From positions 1 through 64,000 of the forward strand of contig NZ_QQAW01000008.1 in the NCBI RefSeq assembly GCF_003350405.1: a DNA stretch of 64,000 nucleotides, written 5' to 3'. The position numbers and the translations under genes are program-made. Numbering within the stretch: the first letter of the stretch is position 1; each line of letters begins with the position of its first letter. The notes beneath the pieces are model-generated. The model did not search any database and was not told where the DNA came from. It saw only the letters and a list, made by a program, of their open reading frames with translations. Shown piece after piece: positions 6,187 to 25,273 of this stretch. The DNA comes from Gluconacetobacter liquefaciens (GTDB lineage: Bacteria > Pseudomonadota > Alphaproteobacteria > Acetobacterales > Acetobacteraceae).

Positions 6187-6196
6187 AGGGATGAAT

Positions 6197-6222
6197 GCCC
6201 GCCCCGGGTCTCCGGGGCGGGC
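6197..6222. terminator. Hairpin between convergent putA and TonB receptor gene
   Basis: GCCCGCCCCGG (6197-6207) and CCGGGGCGGGC (6212-6222) form a perfect 11-bp GC stem with a GTCT loop. It lies 10 bases after the putA stop and 18 bases beyond the stop of the minus-strand receptor gene, so it can serve both. There is no clear T-run, so termination may be weak or assisted. Confidence 0.65.
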
Positions 6223-6240
6223 GGCATGACCCGCGCGGGA

Positions 6241-8667: not shown

Positions 8668-8708
8668 GGGGCACCAACCTTCAACGGACAACGCTATCTT
8701 CTGTATAT

Positions 8709-8725
8709 TGTCATACCTATAATAC
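8709..8725. promoter_or_regulatory. Shared promoter motif, copy 1
   Basis: TGTCATACCTATAATAC on the plus strand lies 42 bases upstream of the TonB receptor start. The sequence at 18894-18910 matches it at 15 of 17 positions (mismatches only at the two central bases). In both places the motif has the same orientation relative to the minus-strand gene next to it. It could be an operator for one of the local GntR proteins, or a promoter core (TATAAT is embedded on the plus strand). Confidence 0.45.
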
Positions 8726-8808
8726 TTTAGCGCCGGATATCCTTGCGTCAACGCACCAATCCGATTCCGGAATATAAATTTTTGATCCTGGATCGGAAAA
8801 AAATGAAA

Positions 8809-9756
8809 TTACGATTCGTTTTCCGCTCCATACCGTTCTTCAAGGGCATCCGTCGTCAGCAGCGAACGTTCCAGCGCCTGCATCGCAGGAAACCCCATCA
8901 GCGACCAGATCTCGTCTATTCCGACCAGCAGATCCGGCCGTTCGACCGTCTCGCCCGTCTCGATAGACGCTTTCATGGCGGCAAGCGCCGAGCGCATACC
9001 CATGATCGCCGCCGCGGGCAACATGCGCGGCAGGCTGATCCGGCGCACCCCCAGTTCCTTCAGTCGTCGCGGCGAAATCAGCGGCGTCGTGGGCCGCGCA
9101 CGGATACCGAAACCCATGTTGATCGATACCGGCACCCCGGCCGCCTCGACAATGCGCGCAATCACCTCCTCAGAGCCTACGGCATCGGGAAAGATCATGT
9201 CCGCACCAGCCGCGACATAGGCCCGCACCCGCTCAAGCGTGGCTTCCAGCCCTTCGACGGCCAACGCATCGGTACGGGCGATAACGACGAAATCGTCATC
9301 GCGACGGGCCATGCACGCAGCCTCGATCTTCTTGACCATCTCCGCCCGGCCGACCAGCGCCTTGCCCGGCATGTGGCCGCACCGCTTCGGGCTCGCCTGG
9401 TCCTCGATATTCATGCCCGCCAGGCCGGCCTCCTCGAACATGCGAGTCGTGTGCCAGACATTCATCGGATTGCCATAGCCATTATCCGCGTCGGCCGTCA
9501 CGGGAATCGACACGGCACGAGCGATGGTGCGGCATTGCGCAACGTTTTCTGCCAGCCCCATCAGGCCGACGTCCTCGATGCCCAGCACAGCATTCGCGAT
9601 CGCCGCGCCACTGGTCGCAGCGCAGGAAAACCCCGCCGCCTCAGCCAGCCGCACGCTGTAGCCATCATAGACCCCGGGCGCGACAAGAAACGCACCGGAT
9701 GAGATCAACTCCCGCAGGCGCGCGGCGGCAGAGGGAAGAGCCGTGGAACGGGTCAT
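8809..9756 (-). CDS. Isocitrate lyase / PEP mutase family lyase (methylisocitrate or dimethylmalate lyase-like)
   Basis: 315 residues forming a (beta/alpha)8 barrel. The active-site loop SPKRCGHMPGK places the family KRCGH motif at residues 124-128 with catalytic Cys126, and the metal-binding ADADNGYGN holds Asp89 and Asp91. Presence of KRCGH indicates C-C lyase activity (retro-Claisen cleavage of a 2-methylisocitrate, isocitrate or dimethylmalate type acid) rather than phosphonate mutase chemistry. It is divergent from an aconitase-family hydratase, a pairing that makes sense as hydration then cleavage. There is no methylcitrate synthase or PrpF nearby, so I do not call it prpB. Confidence is high for the family and low for the substrate. 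Confidence 0.85.
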   Translation of the reverse strand: MTRSTALPSAAARLRELISSGAFLVAPGVYDGYSVRLAEAAGFSCAATSGAAIANAVLGIEDVGLMGLAENVAQCRTIARAVSIPVTADADNGYGNPMNVWHTTRMFEEAGLAGMNIEDQASPKRCGHMPGKALVGRAEMVKKIEAACMARRDDDFVVIARTDALAVEGLEATLERVRAYVAAGADMIFPDAVGSEEVIARIVEAAGVPVSINMGFGIRARPTTPLISPRRLKELGVRRISLPRMLPAAAIMGMRSALAAMKASIETGETVERPDLLVGIDEIWSLMGFPAMQALERSLLTTDALEERYGAENES

Positions 9757-9864
9757 CGGAGTCCTTCATGTCAAATGTCCGTAGCCGGAATAAGTCAGCA
9801 CCCCGCCAAACTGTCAACACTTATGCCAAATGGATGACTTGATTCAGGATGATATCTTAAAATA

Positions 9865-9874
9865 GTGTCGACAC
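9865..9874. promoter_or_regulatory. Palindrome abutting the aconitase-family start codon
   Basis: GTGTCGACAC is a perfect 10-base palindrome ending on the base before the ATG at 9875. No Shine-Dalgarno is seen there. It could be an operator that overlaps translation initiation or a leaderless transcription start. Function is inferred from position only. Confidence 0.3.
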
Positions 9875-12532
9875 ATGCAGCGCTCATATTGGACCGACAC
9901 CACACCCAGCCAGGTCGACCTGGCGGCCATCACCGCCCGGCTCGGCACGACGCCCGATGCGCTTCCATTCTGTGCCCGCATCCTGCTGGAAAATATCGCC
10001 CGCCAGGCCCTGCGGGCCGAAGGCGACCACCTGTCGGATGCGACCCTGGCCGATCTCCAGGCGATCGTCCGCCGCACCCCCGCCGATCGCGGCCGCGGCG
10101 TGGCGCTCGCCGTCTCCCGCGTGATCCTTCCCGATTCCAGCGGCGTGCCGGTCCTGCAGAATCTGGCCGGCATGCGCGACATCGCGGCTGCGCGTGGCGG
10201 CGACGCACGGGCGGTCTCGCCATGCGTCCCGCTCGATCTCATCGTCGATCATTCCCTGCAGGTCGATGTCAGCGGTACACCCGATGCGCTGATCCGTAAC
10301 CTTGCCCGCGAATACGAGCGCAATACCGAACGCTACGCCTTTCTCAAATGGGCGCAGCAGGCCATGCCGGGGCTGACGCTTCACCCGCCGGGCAGCGGCA
10401 TCATTCATCAGATCAATCTGGAACGCCTTGCCCGGATCATGGTGGCCTCCCCCACGCCCCGCGGTACGATCGTCCATCCGGAGTTCGTCCTGGGCGGCGA
10501 TTCCCATACCCCGATGGTCAACGCACTGGGTGTACTGGGCTGGGGCGTAGGCGGACTGGATATCGAAGCCGCCCTGCTCGGCCAGCCCTATGTCGTGCCG
10601 GTCCCCGAAATCGTGGGCGCGTTGCTCGACGGCATCCCGCCCCCCGGCGTGATGACGACCGACCTCGCATTCCTGGTGACCGAGACGCTGCGCCGCGCCA
10701 ACGTCACCGGCGCCTTCGTCGAGTTCTTCGGCCCCGCCATACGCCACCTGCGGCTGGAAGAACGCGCCACCCTCGCCAACATGGCACCCGAATACGGCGC
10801 AACCTGCGGGTTCTTCGCCGTCGACGAGGAAACCTGCCGCTACATGGCCGCAACACGCGGCGCAGCAGCGGATCTGGAAACATGGACCCGGCGCGGCGGC
10901 CTCTTCCGGCCTCTGGCTCTCCCCCCTCCCGATCCCATCTATGATCGGGTCATCCGGATCGACCTGTCGACACTGGGCCTGTCCGTCGCAGGTCCACGCC
11001 GGCCGGAACAGCGCCTGCCCCTCGCAGAGGCCGCACGCTCCTTCCGCACGCTGCAGAACGAGGAAGACGGCACCCTTCGCCAGGCGGACGGCATCGCCGA
11101 CGGCGCAGTCGCCATCGCGGCCATCGCCTCCTGCACCAATACCGCCAATCCCTCTGTCATGCTGGCCGCCGGTCTGGTCGCCGCCAAAGCCGTGGCACGC
11201 GGCATGCGCGTACCCCCGTGGGTCAAGACGTCCATGACCCCCGGTTCGCCCTCGGTGAAAACACTGCTGGAACGCACCGGCCTGCTCGCTTCGCTGGAGG
11301 CAGTGGGCTTCGCGATTGCCGGCTACGGCTGCACCACCTGCGGTGGCAAATCGGGGCCATTGCTGCCGGTGATGGAACAGGCGATCGAACGGCATGGCGT
11401 GCGGGCCGTCGCCGTGCTGTCGGGCAACCGGAATTTCGAGGGCCGCATCCACCGCCTGCTGCCGGCAAACTACCTCGCCTCGCCTCCCCTGGTGGTCCTC
11501 TTCGCTCTGGCGGGACGCGTGGATCTCGATCTGGAATCGGACCCTGTCGGCCACGATTCCACCGGCGCACCTGTCCATCTGCGCGACCTCTGGCCCACGT
11601 CAGAGGAATTGTCCGCGGCCCTCGGCGACAATGCCGGCCGAGGCGGCCCTGGTGAAGCGCCCGAGGAAAGCCGACACCTCTGGCGCACCCTCGCGGCACC
11701 GGGCGGCGATACCTATCCCTGGCGGCCGGACTCCGCCTATCTCTGCCGCCCCCGCCTCGGTGCCCAGAATGGCGCAGACTGGTCGCTGGACGATATCGAC
11801 GGCGCAAGGGTGCTGGCGGCATTCGGCGATTCCCTGACAACCGACCACATCTCGCCCAGTGGCGAAATTCCGCCAGACAGTCCGGCCGGACGCTACCTCT
11901 CCGGCCTTGGCATCGCACGTCCGGCGTTCAACACTTACGTCGCCCGCCGCGGCAACCCGGAGGTAATGACACGCGCGACCTTCGCCAATATCCGTATCCG
12001 CAATGCGCTGGCCGGCGACGGCAGGGGGTGGGAAACACCCGGCCCCGACGGCACGCGCCAGACCATCCATGACGCTGCCATGGCATGGCGCGCCCGCGAC
12101 GTGCCCCTGATCGTGCTGGGCGGCCATCGCTACGGCACCGGCAGCAGCCGCGACTGGGCGGCCCGCGGCACGGCCATGCTGGGCGTAAGAATCGTGATCG
12201 CCCGCGATTTCGAGCGGATCCACCGCGCCAACCTGGTCGGGATGGGCGTCCTTCCCCTGCTGTTCGCGGAGGGCGAAAGCTGGCCGGAACTCGGGCTGAC
12301 CGGCCTCGAGACCTTCTCCTTTCACGGGTTGCGGGCCGGCATCGCCGATGGCGCCCCAATCACCGTCGAAGCCGCGGGAGACACCGGCATCCGCCGTTTC
12401 GTCACCCATGCGGCATTGCTGACGAACAGCGAACGCGCCCTCCTGCGGCAGGGCGGCATACACGAGGCCCTGCTGGCGGCGGTTGCCCCGGACCTGCGGC
12501 CGCAACACGGAGCAGATGACCATGAAGGCTGA
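9875..12532 (+). CDS. Aconitase family hydratase (AcnA/IRP type)
   Basis: An 885-residue single-chain aconitase-type [4Fe-4S] hydro-lyase. The three cluster cysteines are present: Cys420 in ASCTNTANPSVM, and Cys486 and Cys489 in GYGCTTCGGKSG. The C-terminal swivel domain is intact (FGDSLTTDHISPSGEI, GHRYGTGSSRDWAARG, ANLVGMGVLPLLF). The length matches AcnA or AcnD. The gene opens a plus-strand operon with the amidohydrolase (overlapping) and a GntR gene, and is divergent from the KRCGH-type lyase. It is therefore more likely a catabolic tricarboxylate or alkylmaleate hydratase than the housekeeping TCA aconitase. That is inference from context. Confidence 0.85.
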   Translation: MQRSYWTDTTPSQVDLAAITARLGTTPDALPFCARILLENIARQALRAEGDHLSDATLADLQAIVRRTPADRGRGVALAVSRVILPDSSGVPVLQNLAGMRDIAAARGGDARAVSPCVPLDLIVDHSLQVDVSGTPDALIRNLAREYERNTERYAFLKWAQQAMPGLTLHPPGSGIIHQINLERLARIMVASPTPRGTIVHPEFVLGGDSHTPMVNALGVLGWGVGGLDIEAALLGQPYVVPVPEIVGALLDGIPPPGVMTTDLAFLVTETLRRANVTGAFVEFFGPAIRHLRLEERATLANMAPEYGATCGFFAVDEETCRYMAATRGAAADLETWTRRGGLFRPLALPPPDPIYDRVIRIDLSTLGLSVAGPRRPEQRLPLAEAARSFRTLQNEEDGTLRQADGIADGAVAIAAIASCTNTANPSVMLAAGLVAAKAVARGMRVPPWVKTSMTPGSPSVKTLLERTGLLASLEAVGFAIAGYGCTTCGGKSGPLLPVMEQAIERHGVRAVAVLSGNRNFEGRIHRLLPANYLASPPLVVLFALAGRVDLDLESDPVGHDSTGAPVHLRDLWPTSEELSAALGDNAGRGGPGEAPEESRHLWRTLAAPGGDTYPWRPDSAYLCRPRLGAQNGADWSLDDIDGARVLAAFGDSLTTDHISPSGEIPPDSPAGRYLSGLGIARPAFNTYVARRGNPEVMTRATFANIRIRNALAGDGRGWETPGPDGTRQTIHDAAMAWRARDVPLIVLGGHRYGTGSSRDWAARGTAMLGVRIVIARDFERIHRANLVGMGVLPLLFAEGESWPELGLTGLETFSFHGLRAGIADGAPITVEAAGDTGIRRFVTHAALLTNSERALLRQGGIHEALLAAVAPDLRPQHGADDHEG

Positions 12533-13895
12533 CCTCTTGCTCAAGGACGGGCTGATCGTCTGGCCCGGCCTCGGAACGGGCCGGGGCTCCGTCGCCGTCC
12601 GCGACGGAAAGATCGCCGCCATCCTCGCCCAGGGCGAAGACCTCCCGGCCCATCGGGTGATTCCCTGCCACGGCGCCTGGATCATGCCGGGGCTGATCGA
12701 CCCGCACACCCATTTCGGCTTTGGAGCAGGCGACGACGATTTCCGCACGGAATCCCGCTCGGCGGCGCTGGGTGGCGTCACGTCCTATCTCAGTTTCCAC
12801 CGCTCCGCCGACCTCGCGGAGTCCACCCCCCGCTGGATCGCTGCCGGCGAACGGCTTTCCTGTCTCGATTTCGGCTGCCATTTCGGCCTGACCAGCCTGC
12901 GCCACGTCGCCCAGTTGCCCGAGGTCATGGAGCGTTTCGGCGTCAATTCAGCGAAACTCTACCTGATGTACAAAGGCGCTTCCGGCGCCGCGAAAGGCTT
13001 TACCGAAATCGACGACGGGCTGCTGTTTGCGGCAATGCGCCAACTGGCATCCCTGTCCGGCTCGGTGCTGGGTGTGCATTGCGAGAATGTCGAGGTCATT
13101 CCCGGCCTGCGCACCCCGCTGCGCGAAGCCGGCCGCGACGATCTGGCGGCCTGGGACGAACAGAGCCCCGATTTCCTCGAAGCCGAGAACGTGTTCCGCG
13201 TCGGCTATTTCAGCGAAAAGACACGCTGCCGGGTCAACATCGTACACCTGTCGGCCGGCGAGGGGCTCGATATCGTCCAGATGCTGCGCGGTCGCAGCCA
13301 TCCCGCCCCGATCGAGGTCGAGACCTGCGCCCACTACCTGTCCCTGTCGACCGACAGCGCCGCCGGCCTGCTGGGCAAGGTCAATCCCCCGCTGCGCGGC
13401 CGACGCGATGTCGACGCCTTGTGGAACGGCATTGCAAAAGGGCAGATTCTCACCGTCGGTTCCGATCACGTCCCACGCAAGCGCGCGACCAAGGGCCCCG
13501 ACATATGGCAGGCATCGGCGGGCTTTCCCGGCATCGCGACCCTGCTGCCGGTGCTGATCACCGAAGGATGGCACCGGCGCGGCATCCCGCCCGAACGCCT
13601 GGCGGCCGTCACATCGGCAAACGTCGCGGCCCTGTATCGCATTCCCGGCAAAGGCTCCATGCGGGTCGGCGACGACGCCGACCTGGTGGTCGTCGATCCC
13701 GATTGCGAAAGGGTGGTGCAGGCGGCGACGCTGGAATCGCACTCCGACTATTCGCCTTACGAGGGGATGACATTGCGTGGCTGGCCGTCCCTGACAGTTG
13801 CCGGAGGCCGCGTCATGATGGAAAACGGCACCCTGACGGACGAAGCGGAGACACGTCGCGGCCGCTATCTCCACCGTACGTCCGGCGCGGGGTGA
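12522..13895 (+). CDS. Cyclic amidohydrolase (dihydropyrimidinase / allantoinase family)
   Basis: About 457 residues of the metal-dependent amidohydrolase superfamily, which opens cyclic amides or ureides such as hydantoins, dihydropyrimidines and allantoin. Metal ligands are visible: the HxH of DPHTHFG, the carboxylated lysine position in SAKLYLMYKG, a His in ETCAHYLSL and an Asp in VGSDHVPRKR. ATG 12522 lies 9 bases after GGAG; ATG 12516 is an alternative. It overlaps the upstream aconitase-family gene by 11 bases, so the two are translationally coupled. The family is clear and the ring opened is not. Similarity is spread between allantoinase and hydantoinase, and I would not choose. Confidence 0.85.
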   Translation: MKADLLLKDGLIVWPGLGTGRGSVAVRDGKIAAILAQGEDLPAHRVIPCHGAWIMPGLIDPHTHFGFGAGDDDFRTESRSAALGGVTSYLSFHRSADLAESTPRWIAAGERLSCLDFGCHFGLTSLRHVAQLPEVMERFGVNSAKLYLMYKGASGAAKGFTEIDDGLLFAAMRQLASLSGSVLGVHCENVEVIPGLRTPLREAGRDDLAAWDEQSPDFLEAENVFRVGYFSEKTRCRVNIVHLSAGEGLDIVQMLRGRSHPAPIEVETCAHYLSLSTDSAAGLLGKVNPPLRGRRDVDALWNGIAKGQILTVGSDHVPRKRATKGPDIWQASAGFPGIATLLPVLITEGWHRRGIPPERLAAVTSANVAALYRIPGKGSMRVGDDADLVVVDPDCERVVQAATLESHSDYSPYEGMTLRGWPSLTVAGGRVMMENGTLTDEAETRRGRYLHRTSGAG

Positions 13896-13917
13896 CAACA
13901 GGATCAAGGAGCATGTC

Positions 13918-14655
13918 ATGGACGGTCAGGAGGAAGACGACAGCGCCCGCTCGCTGGGCGAAGCGCTGTTTCGTGACATCCTGGCCCTGATCCATTCGGG
14001 CGGGATCGCCCCCGGCGCCACGCTGGGCGAAGCGACCCTGGCCCGTCAGTTCGGCGTCAGCCGCGGCCCGGTGCGCGAGGCGATACGCCGCCTGCAGGGC
14101 ATCGGCCTGGTCACCCGCGAGCCTTTCGCCCGCGCACGCGTGGCATTGCTGGACAGGGCAGCGGTAGACGACCTGTTCGACATGCGCGTCGCACTGGAAG
14201 GCCGCGCCTGCGCCCTGGCCGCCACCCGCATGGACGAGTCCGCAATCACCAGCCTGCTGGCCGCGCTCGAACAGGCGCGTCGCCGCGACCTGGGCGATCC
14301 CGACATCCCCCCCGACGATTTCGACTTTCACCTCCAGTTGATCGAGCATGCGCGCAGCCCGCGCATCTCGGCGGTCCTGGGCGGCGATCTCTATCCGCTG
14401 CTCCGGCTCTATCGCCGCTGGTCCGGCGCCCGGCCGGAACGCAAGAGCGTCGCATACCAGGAGCATTGGCAGATCCTGCGCGCCATCCGCTCGCGCGACG
14501 CCGACCTGGCCCGCTCGCTGATGGAGCAGCATATCGAAAAGGCGCGCGCCAACCTCATGACCGCGCTGGACGCATCGCCCACCATCCGACCAGCGCCAGC
14601 AGCACACTCACCAGCGGCACCAGCCGCTCCGATCCTTCCAGCAGACCAAGCGTAA
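13918..14655 (+). CDS. GntR family transcriptional regulator, FCD subfamily
   Basis: 245 residues. N-terminal wHTH (about 15-80; EATLARQFGVSRGPVREAIRR) and FCD helical domain (about 85-220; FDMRVALEGRACALAATRMD, DFHLQLIEHARSPR, EHWQILRAIRSRD). AAGGAG precedes the ATG. It is the third gene of the aconitase/amidohydrolase operon. The last 30 or so residues are a Pro/Ala-rich tail with no family counterpart. This tail is encoded antisense to the last 100 bases of the convergent permease gene, so it looks like a read-through extension past the usual FCD end. Confidence 0.85.
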   Translation: MDGQEEDDSARSLGEALFRDILALIHSGGIAPGATLGEATLARQFGVSRGPVREAIRRLQGIGLVTREPFARARVALLDRAAVDDLFDMRVALEGRACALAATRMDESAITSLLAALEQARRRDLGDPDIPPDDFDFHLQLIEHARSPRISAVLGGDLYPLLRLYRRWSGARPERKSVAYQEHWQILRAIRSRDADLARSLMEQHIEKARANLMTALDASPTIRPAPAAHSPAAPAAPILPADQA

Positions 14656-15940
14656 CCCCGATTACCGCCAGGGTCGCGACCGTGCCGATCGCCGCGCAGA
14701 ACCGCATCTCGCCGCTTCCCCCCGGTCGCCGCCCCATCACGAATCCACCGATGCAGGTCGCACACCAGGCGATCAGCAGGTTCAGGCTGGCGAATGTGCC
14801 GATCCAGATGAACCACCCCATATAGGATTCCTGTCCCGGTATCGGCCCCATCGCAATGCGGATCACGGCCACCAGCGCCGCCGTTCCACCCAGCAGGACC
14901 AGATTGGGCAGCACCGGCACCCCGCGCCCGTTGCTGGTGCGGGCAAAGGCGGCAGGCAGCACCCCGTCGCGCGCCAGGCACAGCAACCCGCGCGCGATGG
15001 CGATGCTACCGGCCGTAATCATCGCCAGTACGTCGGCAAGGGTCATCGTCATCAGAATGCCCTCGATCGCCGGCCCGCCGTAGCGTGGGTCCGCCGCCAG
15101 GGCCAGCAGCGGCATCTCCTGTCCGCCCAGGCGCCCCGCGTCGGCACCGAACTCGGCCAGGGCCGCAAAGGCCGTCAGCAGGTAGAAGGCCGCATTGACC
15201 CAGATCGTCAGGATCATGGCGCGCGGAATGGCCCGCGTCGGGTTGCGGCATTCCTCGGCCAGACTCGCCGCCCCCTCGAAACCGCCATACATGAAAAAGG
15301 CGAAGCTCAGCCCCATCATGACACCGGCCAGCCCGTGCCCCTGCGCCGACGGCAGCAGCCCCGCCTGCGCCACCGCCGGAAGATGCGGCGACTGCACCAG
15401 AACCCAGGCGGAGAACAGCCCGACGGCACCGATCGACACGACGCTGATGGCAAGCTGCAGATGCACCGCCATCGTGATGCCGCGGGAAACCGACAGCGCC
15501 ACCAGTGCCAGCCCACCCAGCGCCCCCAGCCACCATGGCAGCACATGGCCGGTCAGATGGTCGGCCATCGTGGCCGCCAGCCCGCCGAAAGTCAGCGTAC
15601 CGTTGACGAAGGCCGCAATCGCACAGGCATAGAACAGCAGCCCGAACACGGTGCCCGCCCGACGCCCGAGAGAAAGCTTGAGGTAATCGTACAACGATCC
15701 CGGCGTGCGGACCTGCCGCGCGAAACCCGCAAAGACACGGGCAACGGCCATCAGCAGAAACGCGGCGATCAGAATGCACAGCGGCACCGCCCCGCCCGCG
15801 CCGAAGCCCGAAGCCCCCACAGTCACCAGCGGCACGAAGACGATCGCCGAATAGATCGGCCCGACGCCCGAGGCAGCCTGGGCCACCACGTCGGCCAGGC
15901 CGAGTTCGCCGCGCAGGCGGCCGGAAGGCGCGGCGCTCAT
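14555..15940 (-). CDS. APC superfamily amino acid/amine permease
   Basis: 461 residues with about 12 hydrophobic segments. The APC-type opening (LGLADVVAQAASGVGPIYSA) has the Gly-rich unwound TM1, and there is a conserved segment near residues 210-240 (FAFFMYGGFEGAASLAEEC, then RNPTRAIPRAM). It imports amino acids, amines or similar nitrogen compounds; the specific substrate is not readable. The start codon overlaps the stop of the upstream UTRA-GntR gene (15937-15940, ATGA), so the pair is co-translated. The 3' end runs into the convergent GntR/FCD gene by 101 bases. Confidence 0.85.
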   Translation of the reverse strand: MSAAPSGRLRGELGLADVVAQAASGVGPIYSAIVFVPLVTVGASGFGAGGAVPLCILIAAFLLMAVARVFAGFARQVRTPGSLYDYLKLSLGRRAGTVFGLLFYACAIAAFVNGTLTFGGLAATMADHLTGHVLPWWLGALGGLALVALSVSRGITMAVHLQLAISVVSIGAVGLFSAWVLVQSPHLPAVAQAGLLPSAQGHGLAGVMMGLSFAFFMYGGFEGAASLAEECRNPTRAIPRAMILTIWVNAAFYLLTAFAALAEFGADAGRLGGQEMPLLALAADPRYGGPAIEGILMTMTLADVLAMITAGSIAIARGLLCLARDGVLPAAFARTSNGRGVPVLPNLVLLGGTAALVAVIRIAMGPIPGQESYMGWFIWIGTFASLNLLIAWCATCIGGFVMGRRPGGSGEMRFCAAIGTVATLAVIGVTLGLLEGSERLVPLVSVLLALVGWWAMRPARS

Positions 15941-16779
15941 TCCGTTCCCGCCGCGGGCGGGGCCAGATCGCGCACGCTCAGATGCAGCGCATGCTCGCCC
16001 TGCCGCAGGCTTTCCGCCGAATAGGAAAGGAAATATTCGTACCGGTCCGGGCGGTACACCACCATCAGCCGCTCCACGACACGCCCGGCGGCATCCCGCG
16101 CGATTCGCAGCATGGACAGCAGCGGCGTGCCGATATCCACCCCCAGCGCCTCGGCCGCCGTCGCATCGGCCGCACAGGCGTTGAGGTGCTCGTCGAAATC
16201 GTGCAGTTCCACGCCCGCGGCTTCCAGCGCGGCGGAAACCGGCAGCGTCCCCAATTGCCGGCGCGGCAGGAAACGGGCGAACTCCGCAGGCAGCAGACAG
16301 ACGGAATGCGATATCGCGGAACGCGTGTCCGAGCGCACGCGCTCGATCCGCAGCAACGGCGCATCGACCGGCACGCCAAGCTGTTCAGCCATGACCGGCG
16401 ACGCATCGACGGTTTCATAACCGACGATCCGCACCTGGGTCTTGAAGGCCAGCGAGACCTGATTGCGCCGTACCGCAGTCGACTGCATGGCCGCCCGGAT
16501 CGGGGCCGCGAGCGGAAAGGTCCCGCGCCCACGCAGGCGGCGGATCAGCCCCTCGCTTTCCAGCCGCTTCATCGCCGTGCGCAGCGTAATGCGCGACACG
16601 CCGAAGACCTCGGACAGTTCCGCCTCCGTCGGCATGGGCTCATCCGGCTGGAAACTGCCCTCCATGAGCTTGCGATACAGCACGACGTAGACACGATGAT
16701 GCAGGGGAATCAGCGATTGTTGCGACAGGGGCTCGATATCGCGCAGGGCGGTCTGGACGGTCGGTTTCTTGGCAGCCAT
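15937..16779 (-). CDS. GntR family transcriptional regulator, UTRA (HutC-like) subfamily
   Basis: 280 residues from the ATG at 16779 (MAAKKPTVQ). The wHTH (about 30-95; PTEAELSEVFGVSRITLRTA) ends in the typical GRGTF wing. The UTRA effector domain (about 105-260) has a chorismate-lyase fold. Upstream in-frame starts (16848, 16968) would add a low-complexity Arg/Gly-rich extension overlapping the next gene, so I reject them. It is followed by the permease with a 4-base overlap. HutC-type regulators usually sense the imported substrate or a pathway intermediate, so this one likely controls uptake. Confidence 0.85.
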   Translation of the reverse strand: MAAKKPTVQTALRDIEPLSQQSLIPLHHRVYVVLYRKLMEGSFQPDEPMPTEAELSEVFGVSRITLRTAMKRLESEGLIRRLRGRGTFPLAAPIRAAMQSTAVRRNQVSLAFKTQVRIVGYETVDASPVMAEQLGVPVDAPLLRIERVRSDTRSAISHSVCLLPAEFARFLPRRQLGTLPVSAALEAAGVELHDFDEHLNACAADATAAEALGVDIGTPLLSMLRIARDAAGRVVERLMVVYRPDRYEYFLSYSAESLRQGEHALHLSVRDLAPPAAGTE

Positions 16780-16892
16780 GAAAATTCTGGGAACTCGCGT
16801 CGGTTTGCCCCGCAATGAAGCACGGAACGACACGCGTGATCCATCCATCCTCCACGCCCACCGCCCCTCCGGGGGCAGGATGGCGGCCGCGG

Positions 16893-17648
16893 TCACGCCA
16901 CCTCCGGCAGAACGGCCTCCAGCACCGGCGCGGACACGCGCACGCCGGCCGCCCGGCGCAGCCACCACGCGCAGGCGATGTTCGACGACAGGACCGGCAC
17001 GCTCCCCGCCTGCCGCGCCGCCAGAATCGCCGGCAACGTCAGCAGGCCGGTCCCGCTGATGACGACCGCCTGCGCCTCGCCCGAAATGCCATCCAGCCCA
17101 CGCTGGACGTCCGCCGTACCCATCTCGTAGGCACGGAACGTTTCCGACAGGCTCACCACCTGCACCACGTCATGGCCGGCCGCCTCCCAATAGGCCACGG
17201 CCTGCGCCGTCAACGCCTTCTGGTAAGGCGAGACCAGGGCCAGCCGCCGCACGCCCAGCGCCTCCAGCAGACAACCGATGGCGTGACTGGCCGTCGCCAC
17301 CTTCATCGCCTCCGTCCCCAGACGCTCCGACAATGCCCGGTCCCCGTCCGGCAGCAGGCGATAGCTCGGCCCGGTCAGTCCCACCACCGCCGCGTTCAGC
17401 GACAGTCCCGCCATCTGTCCCAGGGTCGGACCATACAGATCGATATAGCGCGCGTTACGCTCGTCCAGCGTGGTATCCGGCATCACCGGAAAGCGCGCTG
17501 CGTACAGCTTGCCGGCCGGCAGCAGCAGGCGCGCCAGTTCGGGCTCGACCGTCGGATTGGCCGGCGGCACGAGAACACCCAGCCGCGGCATCCCCTCCAG
17601 ATCGGTCAACCCCGCGCGCTGCGCGGCAGCCAGAGTCTCAGATCGCAT
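16893..17648 (-). CDS. Asp/Glu racemase-fold protein (maleate isomerase / arylmalonate decarboxylase-like)
   Basis: 251 residues with the [10 protein letters not shown]-like opening ([16 protein letters not shown]) typical of the maleate isomerase/AMDase branch of the Asp/Glu racemase superfamily. Members use two active-site cysteines (isomerases, racemases) or one (AMDase). Here the first position reads VVGLTGPSY and the second [10 protein letters not shown]. By recalled alignment to AMDase (Gly74 and Cys188) both positions are Gly, leaving no catalytic Cys; a Cys at NIACAW is one strand further on. The function may therefore differ from its relatives. The gene overlaps the FAD monooxygenase by 11 bases and belongs to the same operon. 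Confidence 0.75.
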
Positions 17649-18807
17649 CGATATCCTCCCGGTCGATCATGTCGAGCATCGAGGTCTCGACGAGGAATGC
17701 CCGCGCCTCCCGCGGGTCGGCCGCGATCGCGCGCACGCGCTCGGCCCAGTGCGACAGGTCACCCACGCTGCGGTCGGTCCGTTCCGCCAGCAGCGTGCTG
17801 CCTACCCTGTGCCGCCGTTCGGCTGCCGCCAGAACCGGCGCCACGTCGCCGCTCTCCAGTGCACGCAGGACCGCATTGGCAATCACGCACCCGTCATGCA
17901 TGCCGCAATTCATGTTCATCCCGCCGCGCGTATTCGTCACATGGGCCGCATCCCCGATCAGGACGGCACGACCCACCGCATAGCGCGAGGCAATGCGCCG
18001 CGATGCGCGATACAGGTCCCAGCCATCGACCGGCGGCGCCGCGATGGCCGCCGGCAGCACATCGCGCAGCACGGCTTCGACCCAGGCCCGATCACGCCGC
18101 GTCTCATCCAGCGCCGCATCGGACGGACGCAGGATGACGCGCCAGCAATCATGCATTTCAAGCAGGCTGATCGAACGATTGCCGTCGAACAGATAGGTCA
18201 CGCCGTCCAGACCAGGAATGAAATCGGCCATCGGCGCACGGGTGATCACACGCAGCACTTCGCCGGGATAGACCTTGCCATCGAACCCGATGCCCATCTG
18301 CTCGCGCAGGGCGCTGCCCGCCCCGTTGGCCACCAGCACGAAATCCGCCTCCAGCGCCTGCTCGCGGCCATCATGCCAATACCGCACGCAAGCGGCGCCA
18401 TCCGCGCTCTCGACCGACAGCACGTCGGCACCGAACAGCAGGCGCACATGGGGCAGCCTCTCCAGTGCGTCCAGCGCCGCCCGCGCGATTTCGGCCTGTT
18501 CGACATGCACGCGATACGGATGCTCGGTCAGGTCGGCAAGCATCTCGAACGGAAAGCGCGCGAACGGTCCCGCGACCGTACGGTACTGGGCGGCCCGCAC
18601 CACGCGCGTCCGCCCGCGCACCGGTTCGAGCAACCCCAGCCGGTCAAGGATATCAAGGGTCGGCGGATGGAATGTCGACGCCTTGGACGCGACATTGATC
18701 GTCTCCCGCTTTTCGAGAACGCAGACCGAAACGCCTGCGCGGGCCAGACGCAGCGCCGTGACGAGACCCACCGGTCCCGCGCCGCAGATGATGACCTTAC
18801 CGTTCAT
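17638..18807 (-). CDS. FAD-dependent aromatic/heterocycle monooxygenase (PHBH-type, class A)
   Basis: 389 residues. N-terminal Rossmann FAD motif [18 protein letters not shown], and the second FAD motif [20 protein letters not shown] (GDAAH at about 290) characteristic of single-component flavin hydroxylases acting on phenolic, pyridine or purine rings. I start at 18807 because the protein then begins [11 protein letters not shown] as in the family, with AGGA upstream; an ATG at 18849 adds a charged tail without a ribosome site. First gene of the minus-strand operon (monooxygenase, racemase-fold protein, then UTRA-GntR and permease). Its divergent partner is the aldehyde dehydrogenase gene. 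The substrate is unknown. Confidence 0.85.
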
Positions 18808-18884
18808 CGAGCGGTGTTTCCTGTCATGGCGTCTCTTTTCATGCTCCATGGGTGCCGCAACCGAAACGATGTCGCTTGCGGTTC

Positions 18885-18910
18885 ATGACTTAATGTCATA
18901 CACATAATAC
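18885..18910. promoter_or_regulatory. Divergent operator: inverted repeat plus shared motif, copy 2
   Basis: ATGAC (18885-18889) and GTCAT (18895-18899) are perfect arms around TTAAT. The right arm leads straight into the 17-base motif TGTCATACACATAATAC (18894-18910) that also lies before the TonB receptor at 8.7 kb. The site is centred in the 144-base divergent region between the FAD monooxygenase and aldehyde dehydrogenase genes, a good place for one regulator to control both. Confidence 0.5.
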
Positions 18911-18951
18911 ATATGAAGTCAAACACCCTGAACGGAGCAGGAAAAACCAGC

Positions 18952-20502
18952 ATGAGCGCGCTGCTTGTCGATGTCACTCCGACCGATTCCCGTCTGGCGC
19001 CCACCCCTCGCGCCGAGGATGGGTGCTTCGTCTACCGCCAGTATATCGACGGCGCGTTCGTCGATTCCGATGGCGAGGGCTGGATCGATTCCGACAACCC
19101 GGTCACGGGCACCGTCTGGGCACGCGTGCCCGACGGCACCGCATCGGATGTCGACCGCGCGGTCCGCGCGGCCACGGCCGCCTTCACCACCGGCCCCTGG
19201 GCCACCATGCGGCCGACCGCGCGCGGCGCCCTGCTGCGCCGTCTGGGCGACCTGATCGAACAGAACGCCGACTGGCTGGCCAGGGTCGAACTCCAGGACA
19301 ACGGCAAGCTGATCGCCGAACTCTCCATGCAGATGCGCTACATGGCGCAATACTACTATTATTACGGCGGACTGGCGGACAAGGTCGGCGGCTCCGTGAT
19401 TCCATCAGACAAGCCCGGTATCTTCAATTTCACGACATACGCACCCTGCGGCGTGGTCGCCTGCATCATGCCATGGAACTCGCCCCTGCCACTGACCAGC
19501 CTCAAGCTGGCGCCGGCCCTGGCGGCGGGCGCGACGGTGGTCCTCAAGCCGTCCGAATTCACGTCGGCCTCGCTGCTGGAATTCGTTAAGCTTGTGGAAC
19601 TGGCAGGCTTTCCGCCGGGCGTGGTCAATGTGGTCACCGGTCGCGGCGCCGTGACGGGCGACGCCCTGGTCTGCCATCCCGGCATCCAGCGCATCGCCGT
19701 CACCGGTGGCCCGGAAGCCGGCCGCATCATCGCCGAGAAGGCGGCACGGCACATGAAGCGCGTGACGCTCGAACTGGGCGGCAAATCTCCCAATATCGTC
19801 TTCGCCGACGCGGATATGGACCAGGCGGTCAAGGGGGCGGTTGCTGGCATTTTCGCCGCCTCCGGCCAGACCTGCGTGGCAGGCTCGCGCCTGCTGCTGC
19901 AGGACAGCATCCACGATGCGTTCCTCGAGCGCCTGGTCGATTTCATTCGCGATGTCCGTTTCGGCTCCCCCGCCGACCCGGCGACCCAGATCGCGCCCAT
20001 TTCCACCCGGCCGCAGTTCGAGAAAGTCCGTTCCTATGTCGACATCGCGCAGCAGGACGGCGCGCGCCTGGTCGCCGGCGGCAAACCCCGCGCGGTTCCC
20101 GGCTTCCCCAACGGACTGTTCTTCGAACCCACGATCTTTGCCGACGTGACCAACGACATGCGCATCGCGCGCGAGGAAGTCTTCGGCCCCGTCCTCAGCG
20201 TTCTGCGCTTCCGTGACGAGGAAGATGCAATCCGAATCGCGAACGATACCGAATTCGGCCTGGCGGCAGGTGTGTGGACCGAATCCCTGCGACGCGGAAT
20301 TCTGATGTCCGAACGACTGCGGGCGGGAACGGTGTGGGTGAACAATTACCGTTCCACCAGCACCACCTCGCCCTTCGGCGGCTTCGGCATGAGCGGCGTC
20401 GGACGCGAGGGCGGCATCGCAGGCATGATGGAATATCTCGAAACCAAGAGCGTGTGGATCTCCACCACCGCCGAAATCCCCAATCCTTTCGTGCGGCGCT
20501 GA
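18952..20502 (+). CDS. NAD(P)-dependent aldehyde dehydrogenase
   Basis: 516 residues from ATG 18952 (AGGA 9-12 bases upstream; the ATG at 18913 sits inside the operator region with no ribosome site). Standard ALDH architecture: cofactor motif PWNSPLPLTSLKLAPALAAG, catalytic Glu274 in LELGGKSPNIVF, nucleophile Cys308 in ASGQTCVAGSR, and the C-terminal FGPVLSVLRF and FGGFGMSGVGREGG. It oxidises an aldehyde intermediate to the acid; by sequence it is closest to the broad benzaldehyde/betaine-aldehyde type group. It leads a plus-strand operon with the isochorismatase-fold hydrolase and the aminotransferase. Confidence 0.9.
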   Translation: MSALLVDVTPTDSRLAPTPRAEDGCFVYRQYIDGAFVDSDGEGWIDSDNPVTGTVWARVPDGTASDVDRAVRAATAAFTTGPWATMRPTARGALLRRLGDLIEQNADWLARVELQDNGKLIAELSMQMRYMAQYYYYYGGLADKVGGSVIPSDKPGIFNFTTYAPCGVVACIMPWNSPLPLTSLKLAPALAAGATVVLKPSEFTSASLLEFVKLVELAGFPPGVVNVVTGRGAVTGDALVCHPGIQRIAVTGGPEAGRIIAEKAARHMKRVTLELGGKSPNIVFADADMDQAVKGAVAGIFAASGQTCVAGSRLLLQDSIHDAFLERLVDFIRDVRFGSPADPATQIAPISTRPQFEKVRSYVDIAQQDGARLVAGGKPRAVPGFPNGLFFEPTIFADVTNDMRIAREEVFGPVLSVLRFRDEEDAIRIANDTEFGLAAGVWTESLRRGILMSERLRAGTVWVNNYRSTSTTSPFGGFGMSGVGREGGIAGMMEYLETKSVWISTTAEIPNPFVRR

Positions 20503-20538
20503 CGCGGCACGCATCGCAACGATCACGGAGTACCCACC

Positions 20539-21261
20539 ATGGATGAAAGACCACGCCTATGGGACCGGTTCCTGACGGAACGGGACCGCCAGGTCTATGC
20601 CGCCTCGGGCTACGGAAAACGCGGGGGCTTCGGCTCCCGTCCGGCCCTGTTCATCATCGACGTGCAGTATAATTTCTGCGGCGACGGGCCGGAGGACATC
20701 CTGGACGGACTCAGGACCTATCGCACCCATTGCGGGCCGGAAGCGTGGGCGGCGGTGGCGCACATCGAACGCCTCCTGCTGCTGGCGCGCGAGAAGAACC
20801 TGCCGATCTTCTATACCGAAAGCGCACGCCGTGCCGACCTGCGCGATTCCGGCGTTCAGGTCGGCAAGAATCATCGCGGGCACGAAAAAACGGTCATCGA
20901 GGGCACCCATGCCACGCGCGTCGTCGCCCCGCTGGCTCCCCGCCCCCAGGATTATCTGATCGGCAAGCGCAAGCCGTCCTGCTTCTTCGGCACGCTGTTC
21001 ATGAGCCAGCTCAATTTCCTCGACGTCGATACGCTGATCCTGACCGGCTGCACGACGTCGGGATGCCTGCGCGCCACGGCTGTCGATGCCTATTCCTACA
21101 ATTTCAAGACCATCATCCCCGAAGAAACCGCCTTCGACCGGTTCGAGGCCAGCCACGCGATCAACCTGTTCGACCTCAACTGTAAATATGCCGACGTCAT
21201 TCCCACCGACGACGTCGCCGCTTACCTCAGCGCCTGCCCCGTGCGGGCGGAGACTCCCTGA
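20539..21261 (+). CDS. Isochorismatase-family cysteine hydrolase (amidase / N-carbamoyl hydrolase type)
   Basis: 240 residues of the CSHase/isochorismatase fold. The triad is visible: Asp41 (FIIDVQYNF), a Lys near 143-145 (LIGKRKPSCFFGT) and Cys176 (LTGCTTSGCLRATAVD), with the cis-peptide motif before it. The Lys-Cys combination indicates an amide or N-carbamoyl hydrolase (as in N-carbamoylsarcosine amidase, maleamate amidohydrolase or RutB) rather than true isochorismatase. GGAG lies 8 bases before the ATG. It ends in a one-base TGATG overlap with the aminotransferase. In context it probably releases ammonia or CO2 plus ammonia from the opened ring. Confidence 0.85.
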   Translation: MDERPRLWDRFLTERDRQVYAASGYGKRGGFGSRPALFIIDVQYNFCGDGPEDILDGLRTYRTHCGPEAWAAVAHIERLLLLAREKNLPIFYTESARRADLRDSGVQVGKNHRGHEKTVIEGTHATRVVAPLAPRPQDYLIGKRKPSCFFGTLFMSQLNFLDVDTLILTGCTTSGCLRATAVDAYSYNFKTIIPEETAFDRFEASHAINLFDLNCKYADVIPTDDVAAYLSACPVRAETP

Positions 21262-22550
21262 TGCCCGCCCCCGACTACACCCGTTCGCGCGCCTATCGCG
21301 CGGCCGCGTGCACCCACCTGCCTTTCGGCGTCTCTTCCACTCCACGCGGACGGCAGAGCCCGGTGCCGGTGGTGATCGAGGAAGCACAGGGTGTTCACCT
21401 GACCGATCTGGACGGCAACCGCTATATCGACTTCACCCTCGGCTACGGTCCGCTCCTGCTGGGTCATACACCCGATTGCGTGCAGGCGGCGGTCACGCGG
21501 GAAATGGCCCGCGGCCTGCGCACGGCAACGGTCCACCGGGGCGAGGCCGCGCTGGCGGACCTGCTGGCGGACTGCGTGCCCACAGCCGAACAGACGGCCT
21601 TCGTCACGACCGGCACCGAGGCCGTGCAACTCGCGCTGCGCATCGCCCGCGCCGCCACCGGGCGGCTCAGGATCGCAAAGTTCCGCGCCAACTATCACGG
21701 CTGGATCGACAATGTGCACGTCGCAGGCGCACCGGACAATGACGGCCCCTGCACCATCGGCCAGGACCCGGCCGCATCGGCGAACGTCGTGCTGTTCGAC
21801 TGGGGCGACGCCGCGCAACTGGCCGCGCTCGACAGCAGCTTCGCTGCCGTCATCCTCGAGCCCGCAGCGATCAATCCCGGCTGCTTCGCTCCGCCGCCGG
21901 GCTTCCTGGACGCCGTGAGGACAATGACACGCCAACACGGCATCGTCCTGATATTCGACGAGGTCATCACCGGTTTCCGCCTCGGGCTCGGGGGCGCCCA
22001 GCAACGCTACGGCGTCCTGCCGGACCTGACGGTACTGGGAAAGGTGCTGGGCGGCGGCCTGCCGATCGGCGCGGTGACGGGGCGCCGCGACATCATGCAC
22101 GACGTCGCGACCGGGCGCCTGCTGCATCGCGGCACCTTCAACGGCAATCCGCTGTCCCTCGCCGCCGGATTCGCAGCCATCTCCCATCTGCGTACGCACG
22201 CGACAACGCTCTACCCGAGGCTGGATGCCATGGCCGCCGAACTATGCGCCCATGTCAACACGCAGGCCATGCGGGCAGGCGTCGCGGCCTGCGCCCAGGC
22301 TGTCGGCTCGGCCGTGCAACTCTTTGTCGGAACGAAGGGGCTGACCTGCATCAGCGACCTGACGCAGGTGGACCGGGCAGAAACCGCCCGCCTGACGGAC
22401 GCCCTGCTCCAACGCGGCATCTACGCCCTGCCACGGGGGCTGATGTATCTGGGCACGCCGCATGACGACACCGACATGGCCACGACCCGCCACGCCCTGT
22501 CGGAAGCCCTGGAAACCTTGCGGACCCCACCCACACGGCAAGGTCCGTAA
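21261..22550 (+). CDS. Class III PLP aminotransferase (glutamate-1-semialdehyde aminomutase-like)
   Basis: 429 residues, fold type I. PLP-binding features: TGTEAVQLALRIARA, the Asp of IFDEVITGFRLGLGG, and Schiff-base Lys261 in LGKVLGGGLPIGAVTG. The overall sequence resembles the HemL subgroup of class III, but a catabolic operon position after an aldehyde dehydrogenase and an amidase argues for a transaminase or aminomutase on an amino acid intermediate, not for tetrapyrrole synthesis. Start ATG overlaps the upstream stop by one base. Followed immediately by a hairpin and T-run. Confidence 0.85.
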   Translation: MPAPDYTRSRAYRAAACTHLPFGVSSTPRGRQSPVPVVIEEAQGVHLTDLDGNRYIDFTLGYGPLLLGHTPDCVQAAVTREMARGLRTATVHRGEAALADLLADCVPTAEQTAFVTTGTEAVQLALRIARAATGRLRIAKFRANYHGWIDNVHVAGAPDNDGPCTIGQDPAASANVVLFDWGDAAQLAALDSSFAAVILEPAAINPGCFAPPPGFLDAVRTMTRQHGIVLIFDEVITGFRLGLGGAQQRYGVLPDLTVLGKVLGGGLPIGAVTGRRDIMHDVATGRLLHRGTFNGNPLSLAAGFAAISHLRTHATTLYPRLDAMAAELCAHVNTQAMRAGVAACAQAVGSAVQLFVGTKGLTCISDLTQVDRAETARLTDALLQRGIYALPRGLMYLGTPHDDTDMATTRHALSEALETLRTPPTRQGP

Positions 22551-22555
22551 TTTTT
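22521..22555 (+). terminator. Rho-independent terminator-like hairpin after the aminotransferase gene
   Basis: CGGACC (22521-22526) pairs with GGTCCG (22542-22547), then TAATTTTT (22548-22555). The stem overlaps the last codons. The loop is long (15 bases), so strength is moderate. Confidence 0.5.
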
Positions 22556-22557
22556 CG

Positions 22558-25020: not shown

Positions 25021-25063
25021 TTCTCTCATTCTCGCAACCACGGTTAGGTGGTGCCTTAAAAAC

Positions 25064-25082
25064 ACAAATGAGAATCACTCAC
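25064..25082 (-). promoter_or_regulatory. Fur-box-like site before the siderophore receptor
   Basis: ACAAATGAGAATCACTCAC matches the classical 19-base Fur box at 12 of 19 positions and contains the core TGAGAATCA. It lies in the promoter of the minus-strand receptor gene. Confidence 0.55.
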
Positions 25083-25273
25083 AATTGCATAAGCGCCATA
25101 AAAATCATAGACTTAGGTATAGGTTTCCAATTTCTTTCAGAAATGTTATGATACACCGTGACATTCTGTTTCACATAAAGCGCCGCATGGATACGCCCCC
25201 CGGCACCAGACGCCGGCTGACCGGAAAGGCGTTGGAAAACGAGAGCGGCCGAGCCGGAGGACTCTCCTGAGCC

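Follow-up and report, generated by a model that had tools for sequence, protein, structure and literature searches.

A mobile catabolic island of Gluconacetobacter liquefaciens and its probable role in the breakdown of a nitrogen heterocycle

The 64,000-nucleotide stretch of Gluconacetobacter liquefaciens DNA analysed here (contig NZ_QQAW01000008.1, positions 1 to 64,000; hereafter the window) carries, at positions 8809-22550, a real, conserved and mobile catabolic island, which appears to encode an undescribed route of nitrogen-ring breakdown assembled from known enzyme families. A chance assemblage is excluded, because the block recurs in four Gluconacetobacter genomes and its eight enzymes stand together on two Shinella plasmids. 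The model we propose, and on balance favour, is that of a variable catabolic unit for a nitrogen heterocycle which follows a cyclic-imide logic and combines two modules: a lower one made of a C-C lyase, an aconitase, a cyclic amidohydrolase and an isochorismatase-fold amidohydrolase, and an upper one made of an FAD hydroxylase, a racemase-fold protein, an aldehyde dehydrogenase and an aminotransferase. We infer each reaction and its place in the order, as well as the imide and the substrate itself; the latter is probably a pyrrole or a cyclic imide, with pyrroles as the favoured class, and would be broken down to central metabolites. The initial annotation is supported in part: its general proposal stands, that the island degrades a cyclic nitrogen compound by a route whose final steps are a hydration and a C-C cleavage, and its order of steps is revised below.

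Gene content and mobility of the island

Profile and Pfam searches of the island frames recovered every gene named in the initial annotation with the domain assigned to it there. The counts had to be corrected, from ten genes to 11 (eight enzymes, one permease and two GntR regulators) and from three transcription units to four. Unit 1, leftward, is the PEP-mutase/ICL-type lyase gene; unit 2, rightward, comprises the aconitase, the cyclic amidohydrolase and the FCD-GntR regulator; unit 3, leftward, the FAD hydroxylase, the racemase-fold protein, the UTRA-GntR regulator and the permease; and unit 4, rightward, the aldehyde dehydrogenase, the isochorismatase-fold protein and the aminotransferase. 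Stops and starts overlap in the aconitase/amidohydrolase, hydroxylase/racemase-fold, UTRA/permease and isochorismatase/aminotransferase pairs, and the reading frames place the likely starts of the amidohydrolase and of the UTRA regulator at 12522 and 16779.

6241-8751, minus strand: TonB-dependent receptor (Pfam TonB_dep_Rec and Plug), left end of the variable unit, not counted among the 11 genes
8809-9756, minus strand: PEPM, PEP-mutase/ICL-superfamily C-C lyase of the methylisocitrate/dimethylmalate lyase type (KRCGH motif)
9875-12532, plus strand: ACN, AcnA-type aconitase paralogue (NF006757)
12522-13895, plus strand: AMH, cyclic amidohydrolase of the hydantoinase/imidase/allantoinase family (TIGR02033, PDB 1gkr, metal-site motifs)
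13918-14655, plus strand: GntR/FCD regulator (Pfam FCD and GntR)
14555-15940, minus strand: APC-type amino acid permease (Pfam AA_permease_2)
15937-16779, minus strand: GntR/UTRA regulator (Pfam UTRA and GntR), start uncertain, open frame to 16968
16893-17648, minus strand: RAC, Asp/Glu-racemase-fold protein of the AMDase/maleate-isomerase/EutA group (Pfam Amdase), without the catalytic Cys
17638-18849, minus strand: FMO, single-component FAD hydroxylase (Pfam FAD_binding_3)
18913-20502, plus strand: ALDH, aldehyde dehydrogenase (BADH model)
20539-21261, plus strand: ISO, isochorismatase-fold amidohydrolase of the N-carbamoylsarcosinase/maleamidase type (Pfam Isochorismatase)
21261-22550, plus strand: AT, class III aminotransferase of the glutamate-1-semialdehyde aminomutase (GSAM) type (Pfam Aminotran_3)

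The island belongs to a variable unit of about 16.4 kb (6190-22558). At 94% identity or more, PEPM is present in 4 of the 14 Gluconacetobacter genomes searched, our own included, and the same block is found in G. dulcium LMG 1728 and G. sacchari LMG 19747. In three carriers (our genome, G010 and G006) it lies between putA and a second, right-hand TonB receptor gene. The island-free genome G001 aligns to the window up to 6190, in putA, and again from 22558, at the second TonB receptor and the sensor kinase, with about 5.5 kb of other DNA between putA and the right-hand receptor against 16.4 kb in the window. When this G001 stretch was searched with the island and flank proteins, no island protein matched the DNA between the two; the search found only the TonB receptor on the right and, within putA, an aldehyde-dehydrogenase match of 32%. 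In G011, the segment corresponding to 6025-22571 of the window is located at a different genomic place, and transposase-like frames, as judged by eye, start directly after the aminotransferase gene. The left TonB receptor is part of the unit, since it travels with the island in G011 and was not found at the G001 site; its similarity to the haemoglobin/transferrin-type model TIGR01786 is weak (59 bits against a cut-off of 324), and a search for a PDB sequence relative at E 0.01 returned none. The chromosomal flanks shared with the island-free strain consist of PutA on the left (2461-6186) and of a Fiu-like TonB siderophore receptor followed by a sensor kinase on the right (22558-26314).

A conserved and separable lower module

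Conserved gene order elsewhere, on which the initial annotation had staked its proposal, is found in the other Gluconacetobacter strains and on the Shinella plasmids. In Shinella sp. WSC3-e, all eight enzymes are encoded within 15 kb of one plasmid, with identities to the window proteins of 68% for PEPM, 54% for ACN, 57% for AMH, 82% for ISO, 69% for ALDH, 42% for FMO, 38% for RAC and 59% for AT; its GntR protein matches the GntR/FCD regulator of the window at 48%, and an NMT1-type ABC transporter stands in the permease's stead, the block holding no APC permease relative. A plasmid of Shinella WSD5-1 shows the identical gene set and order. Just left of the Shinella block, a second acnA gene is accompanied by MmgE/PrpD and carboxymuconolactone decarboxylase genes (L035, 1478-6019).

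The four enzymes PEPM, ACN, AMH and ISO are a conserved, separable unit. Of the island genes, the Antarctobacter plasmid pSMS3-3 carries those for PEPM, GntR, ACN, AMH and ISO and lacks those for FMO, RAC, ALDH and AT; G131 carries the same five over two neighbouring stretches, again without the other four, and its ABC transporter ATPase is 63% identical to that of Shinella. The existence of the lower module without the upper one suggests that transamination and aldehyde oxidation precede the opening of the imide. The step order of the initial annotation, which began with hydroxylation and ring opening, therefore stands as regards the final hydration and cleavage, but is better recast as two modules, with transamination and aldehyde oxidation moved ahead of the imide opening.

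The lower-module enzymes resemble known families without reaching the models of their best-known members in every case. PEPM belongs to the PEP-mutase family (Pfam PEP_mutase, 182.9 bits) and bears KRCGH at residue 124, scores below the equivalog cut-off of prpB (TIGR02317, 234.5 bits against 354.4), and has the 2,3-dimethylmalate lyase 3fa3 and the methylisocitrate lyase 3eoo as best PDB relatives. ACN exceeds the cut-offs of NF006757 (984 bits against 686) and NF009520 (970 against 905) and falls below that of TIGR01341 (882.5 against 945); it keeps the SCTNT and GCTTC motifs with the cluster cysteines, together with the SSR and RRGN stretches, which we take to be substrate-binding. All 5 island aconitase rows, two of which are from Gluconacetobacter, read CxGKSG, and the 4 other aligned aconitases have N or A for the K, a difference that may go back to a single inherited change, given the kinship of the island copies. 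For AMH, the two best of 52 families were the dihydropyrimidinase model TIGR02033 (253 bits against 393) and the allantoinase AllB (237 against 358), and no equivalog cut-off of a named activity was reached among the best 25 of these families; its best PDB relative is the L-hydantoinase 1gkr, and 5 of 5 motifs of a binuclear metal site are present (HTH, SAK with the bridging Lys, VHCEN, VHLS and SDH), presumably corresponding to the metal ligands of hydantoinases. ISO is closest in the PDB to the N-carbamoylsarcosine amidohydrolases 26st and 1nba, with 3ot4 also matched, and its IIDVQ (39), GKRKPS (142) and GCTTSGC (170) motifs, aligned with 26st and 1nba, presumably supply an Asp-Lys-Cys triad. 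AMH, ISO and PEPM thus retain the active-site motifs of their families, which presumably contain the catalytic residues. The proximity of PEPM to dimethylmalate and methylisocitrate lyases, the intact motifs of ACN, AMH and ISO, the relation of FMO to PnpA and HspB and the presence of separate AcnA and prp genes in the genome were counted in favour of the two-module model with its sequence of imide opening, hydration and cleavage.

In the proposed lower module, AMH would open a cyclic imide, such as a substituted maleimide, to the half-amide, and ISO would strip the amide as ammonia to leave a substituted maleate. This would be hydrated by ACN, as aconitase does 2-methylaconitate, and the resulting 2-alkylisocitrate-like acid would be cleaved by PEPM to a 2-oxo acid and a carboxylic acid. 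We read the module in this way mainly because AMH and ISO are repeatedly found in the company of a lyase or a hydratase. More distant AMH-ISO pairs lie beside a PrpB-like lyase in L040, L041 and L093, the lyase of L040 scoring above the prpB cut-off. In Variovorax (L046, 1238-8678) and Methylobacterium (L048, 11120-22841) the pair is near two MmgE/PrpD genes that flank an FAD protein resembling flavocytochrome c and tricarballylate dehydrogenase (TcuA), and Methylobacterium additionally carries a PrpB-like lyase. A hydratase of some kind therefore often accompanies the amidases, as predicted by a logic leading from imide to diacid, hydroxy acid and cleavage. The arrangement in L046 and L048 looks like a version of the lower module for a saturated imide (succinimide). 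No ISO and no lyase is annotated next to the AMH relative of Variovorax PBL-E5 (L047).

The island is not a displaced methylcitrate cycle, because the genome holds a separate AcnA (C1:311272, 47% identical to ACN) and prp genes elsewhere: on contig C5, the methylcitrate synthase PrpC (NF009006, 671 bits against a cut-off of 550) adjoins a PrpD-type protein (815 bits, below the cut-off of 950) and a PEPM relative (37-39%). No methylcitrate synthase was found among the 11 island genes in the library and Pfam searches. We therefore reject the methylcitrate cycle as the function of the island, whose copies are extra; the possibility, raised in the initial annotation, that the best homologues might all belong to one well-described pathway with its missing genes elsewhere in the genome is not borne out, although no search aimed at a 2,5-dihydroxypyridine dioxygenase, a barbiturase or an allantoate enzyme elsewhere in the genome was made.

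Several observations count against the two-module imide reading. Firstly, ISO relatives, found in 24 of 385 genomes sampled from the class (own included; E up to 1e-40), are mostly in other company: among the 18 regions fetched, PEPM is absent from 13 and AMH from 16; the 5 with a PEPM relative within reach include one where it lies in the adjacent stretch, 2 have an AMH relative, and the others represent different settings. Secondly, FMO-RAC pairs occur without an AMH-type partner, AMH relatives being of 31-33% identity only in G261, G023, G937 and G943 and absent from G420 at E 1e-40, so that the two modules are not obligate partners. Thirdly, no characterised imidase or half-amidase of the libraries used comes as close to AMH and ISO as hydantoinase and carbamoylsarcosinase do, so that a hydantoin or carbamoyl route is also conceivable. 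In such a route, which we consider unlikely, AMH would act as a hydantoinase on a hydantoin or ureide and ISO as an N-carbamoyl amidohydrolase, AT and ALDH would process the freed amino acid, and ACN and PEPM would form a separate tricarboxylate branch. The best matches of both amidohydrolases agree with it, from the dihydropyrimidinase and allantoinase models to 1gkr, 26st and 1nba; but the AMH scores stay below the curated cut-offs among the best 25 of 52 families, nothing would lead the released amino acid to ACN where PEPM, ACN, AMH and ISO occur without AT or ALDH relatives nearby, and the recurrent grouping of AMH and ISO with a lyase or a hydratase would be left unexplained.

The upper module and the nature of the substrate

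In the model of a heterocycle degraded through an imide, AT and ALDH would take an amine side chain, aminomethyl or the like, to an aldehyde and then to a carboxylate. FMO would hydroxylate the ring, perhaps with displacement of a carboxylate, RAC would act on the unstable product, and the imide would form. The permease and the TonB receptor would import the substrate, which the two GntR proteins would sense.

FMO (Pfam FAD_binding_3, 156 bits) has PnpA (6ain) and HspB (7da9) as its best two PDB relatives, both of which we take to be ring hydroxylases that displace a substituent (ipso-hydroxylases). ALDH scores 506 bits with the BADH model, below the cut-off of 669. AT falls below the cut-offs of NF000818 (332 bits against 398) and of the GSAM model TIGR00713 (312.7 against 527.3); GSAM 6w80 is its best PDB relative, and the window and Shinella proteins both retain Ser and Arg in the N-terminal motif of GSAM. 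RAC is a member of the Amdase family (44.2 bits against a cut-off of 25.9), its profile matching 2xec, 4fq7 and 3dtv, and reaches only 52.5 bits of the 225 required by the NCBIfam arylmalonate decarboxylase model. At the SGTG position, where 2xec/2xed and 4fq7/4fq5 differ by Cys/Ala, it has Thr in place of a catalytic Cys, and none of the 30 readable rows of RAC relatives has Cys there; this table leaves out L028 and L115, L024 being unreadable at the motif columns, and L115 has a Cys one residue before the position. At a second motif (ACTG/ACSG), a Cys that probably corresponds to the other Cys of maleate isomerases is present in 15 of the 30 rows, outside the window clade. RAC, lacking Cys at the known position, is thus not a standard Cys-dependent isomerase or decarboxylase: the fold family given in the initial annotation holds, without the Cys that marks the maleate isomerases. 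In another setting, RAC relatives of Streptomyces and Rhodococcus fascians (L042, L043 and L044) are encoded divergently from adjacent carrier amino-acid genes of the ArgC/RimK type, with LysW and LeuA named in L042 and L043, which points to another role for this protein group.

A phylogenetic tree of 37 FMO relatives groups the window protein with those of G. dulcium, G. sacchari, Shinella, G261 and a short contig of a metagenome-assembled genome (support 100/99); a 32-row tree shows the same clades, and the long-branch row L107_4057 was left out of both. A wider clade of 15 rows (100/100) adds Streptomyces, Nonomuraea, G023 and six Acetobacteraceae pairs. These six (L163-L168) are the best places outside Gluconacetobacter and G023 of a search at the order level, in which 40 of the 299 genomes gave an FMO match at E 1e-100; all are FMO-RAC pairs of the wider clade (FMO 39-41%, RAC 45-49% to the window), with no AMH or ISO relative within the stretch. 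Among 398 Pseudomonadota genomes searched at E 1e-70, 5 matched, own included, and all five places other than our own lie outside the 15-row clade. FMO alone, searched against all genome contigs, gave three loci.

Genes of haem-precursor synthesis adjoin three members of this clade. In G261, the order on one strand is UTRA regulator (52% identical to that of the window), class IV aminotransferase, ABC ATPase, FMO, RAC and hemC. In Shinella, AT is immediately followed by a hemC gene read from the other strand; this plasmid copy is 58-64% identical to Rhodobacterales plasmid copies against about 51% or less to the Rhizobiaceae copies listed. The closest relative that the plasmid collection offers outside Shinella (64%) is on a Haematobacter massiliensis plasmid (L124, 7688-12927), where it comes after genes for methylamine/amine dehydrogenase and cytochrome c. 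On a plasmid of Streptomyces sp. NBC_00704 (L037, 2130-18013), FMO and RAC are found with a second racemase, HemA, HemB and HemL, and with a glutamyl-tRNA ligase relative several kb away; this may be a biosynthetic cluster for the production and oxidation of porphobilinogen. The association was counted over 81 fetched loci of at least 9 kb, after exclusion of 13 loci fetched because of hemC; with 13 Gluconacetobacter loci set aside, there remained 10 clade loci and 58 others, the latter counting some FMO-free loci and a few stretches that overlap or adjoin. hemA, hemB or hemC occur in 3 loci, all within the 15-row clade, that is in 3/10 clade loci against 0/20 other FMO-bearing loci (Fisher p 0.030) and against 0/58 when every other non-Gluconacetobacter locus is taken, whatever its kind (p 0.0024), both p values being optimistic as the association was noticed before testing and the clade loci are not independent. 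The hem-gene link is weak support for porphobilinogen as the substrate.

The pyrrole porphobilinogen bears an aminomethyl, a carboxymethyl and a carboxyethyl side chain, and its catabolism, or that of a close monopyrrole, is a tentative and rather doubtful assignment for the island. AT and ALDH would make the aminomethyl group a carboxylate, which FMO with RAC would replace while oxidising the ring to 3-carboxymethyl-4-carboxyethyl-maleimide. AMH and ISO would then free a tetracarboxylate, equivalent to 2-methylaconitate with CH2CH2COOH for CH3, that ACN and PEPM would split in the manner of the methylcitrate cycle to succinate and 2-oxoglutarate, with a carbon balance of C10 = CO2 + C4 + C5. 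Several points speak against this assignment. To reach a maleimide from a pyrrole takes a two-electron oxidation beyond those for which the island plainly has enzymes, and we can only guess that a second FMO turnover or the action of ALDH on a hydroxylactam provides it; this gap, and the lack of an assigned reaction for RAC, also count against the two-module model in general. The G261 assembly is 70% complete and its hemC is the only one found, so that it may be a housekeeping gene; the RAC of the Streptomyces plasmid is of the Cys-bearing type. The Gluconacetobacter island contains no hem gene, and the scan found none at G023, at Nonomuraea or at five Acetobacteraceae FMO-RAC loci, namely the five longer ones of L163-L168, L168 being only a 3 kb contig; these hem-free Acetobacteraceae loci weaken the porphobilinogen reading.

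Maleimides of the haematinic-acid kind arise by tetrapyrrole oxidation, and the same imide chemistry could be directed at such a breakdown product (haematinic acid or a uroporphyrin-derived maleimide), FMO and RAC trimming the end of a linear tetrapyrrole or dipyrrole. The hem-gene neighbours and the weak haemoglobin-receptor similarity of the TonB receptor would fit; AT and ALDH would have no obvious job, no bilin-specific enzyme is present among the 11 genes, and we judge this quite unlikely.

It is very unlikely that the island serves pyridine catabolism of the nicotine or nicotinate kind, in which FMO would yield a dihydroxypyridine, an unlisted enzyme would cleave the ring, and ISO and RAC would be maleamate amidase and maleate isomerase. 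HspB, the second-best PDB relative of FMO, is a pyridine hydroxylase, and the ISO family includes 3ot4/3uao, a maleamate amidase; but the Cys on which maleate isomerase catalysis depends is missing from RAC, maleate or fumarate would need no AMH, ACN or PEPM, and neither 2,5-dihydroxypyridine (ring-cleavage) dioxygenase nor N-formylmaleamate deformylase is among the 11 genes, the rest of the genome not having been searched for them. Salvage of 5-aminolevulinate by AT (to 4,5-dioxovalerate) and ALDH (to 2-oxoglutarate) beside an unrelated imide module would suit the GSAM-like AT with its Ser/Arg motif and the hem-gene neighbours, but is highly improbable, as FMO, RAC, AMH, ISO, ACN and PEPM would go unexplained although the eight enzymes recur together in Shinella. 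A urate/allantoin route was rejected, FMO scoring 61.7 with the HpxO-type model against a cut-off of 500. Riboflavin catabolism was likewise rejected, the pathway described in the accessible text of PMC12746152 using other enzymes, as was a link of the Shinella block to acesulfame, the acesulfame genes of its host being placed on another plasmid in the accessible text of PMC11500405.

Relation to known pathways and to parallel clusters

The proposed last two steps of the island are the chemistry of the 2-methylcitrate cycle (AcnA/AcnB or AcnD/PrpF with PrpB), performed by the same hydratase and lyase families on a larger side chain; the island differs by the lack of a methylcitrate synthase, by a PEPM below the prpB cut-off and by the linked amidases and hydroxylase. 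Cyclic imide degradation, as known from Blastobacter and Pseudomonas work, proceeds by an imidase and a half-amidase, and the likeness lies in a hydantoinase-family enzyme followed by an amidase; here the proposed half-amidase is isochorismatase-fold, and an aconitase, a C-C lyase and the upper module are added. Nicotinate fermentation ends with a 2,3-dimethylmaleate hydratase (two-subunit LeuCD type) and a 2,3-dimethylmalate lyase, that is, with aconitase-superfamily hydration of a substituted maleate followed by a PEP-mutase-superfamily lyase, and 3fa3 is the best match of PEPM; the island has an O2-using FAD hydroxylase, a full AcnA hydratase and other upper steps instead. With the aerobic nicotine and nicotinate pathways (HspB/NicC, maleamate amidase, maleate isomerase) it shares an FAD hydroxylase, an isochorismatase-fold amidase and an AMDase-fold protein, but not the ring-cleavage dioxygenase or the deformylase; its RAC is without the Cys, and AMH, ACN, PEPM and AT are extra.

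The gene set is undescribed in the literature searched on porphobilinogen catabolism and oxygenase, imide pathways, dimethylmalate-lyase/isochorismatase clusters and pyrrole carboxylate oxygenases, although older enzymology in subscription journals may exist, and no pathway for bacterial growth on porphobilinogen was found in it. Nearly all organisms produce tetrapyrrole precursors, along with the maleimides to which these break down. If our model is true, the lyase, the aconitase, the imidase-type amidohydrolase and the isochorismatase would provide a compact gene signature for imide and pyrrole catabolism, and would explain a wider set of clusters in which amidases stand beside PrpB-, AcnA- or PrpD-like genes. 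Should the substrate not be a pyrrole, the four enzymes of the lower module would still stand as a conserved and separable unit.

Parallel clusters in Acetobacteraceae and another proteobacterium (L033, L032, L028 and L144) combine an FAD hydroxylase with an isochorismatase and variously add a PEP-mutase-type lyase, a weak aconitase-type relative and an AMDase-fold protein. L028, L032 and L033 each contain a frame of about 300 amino acids, the three being alike by eye.

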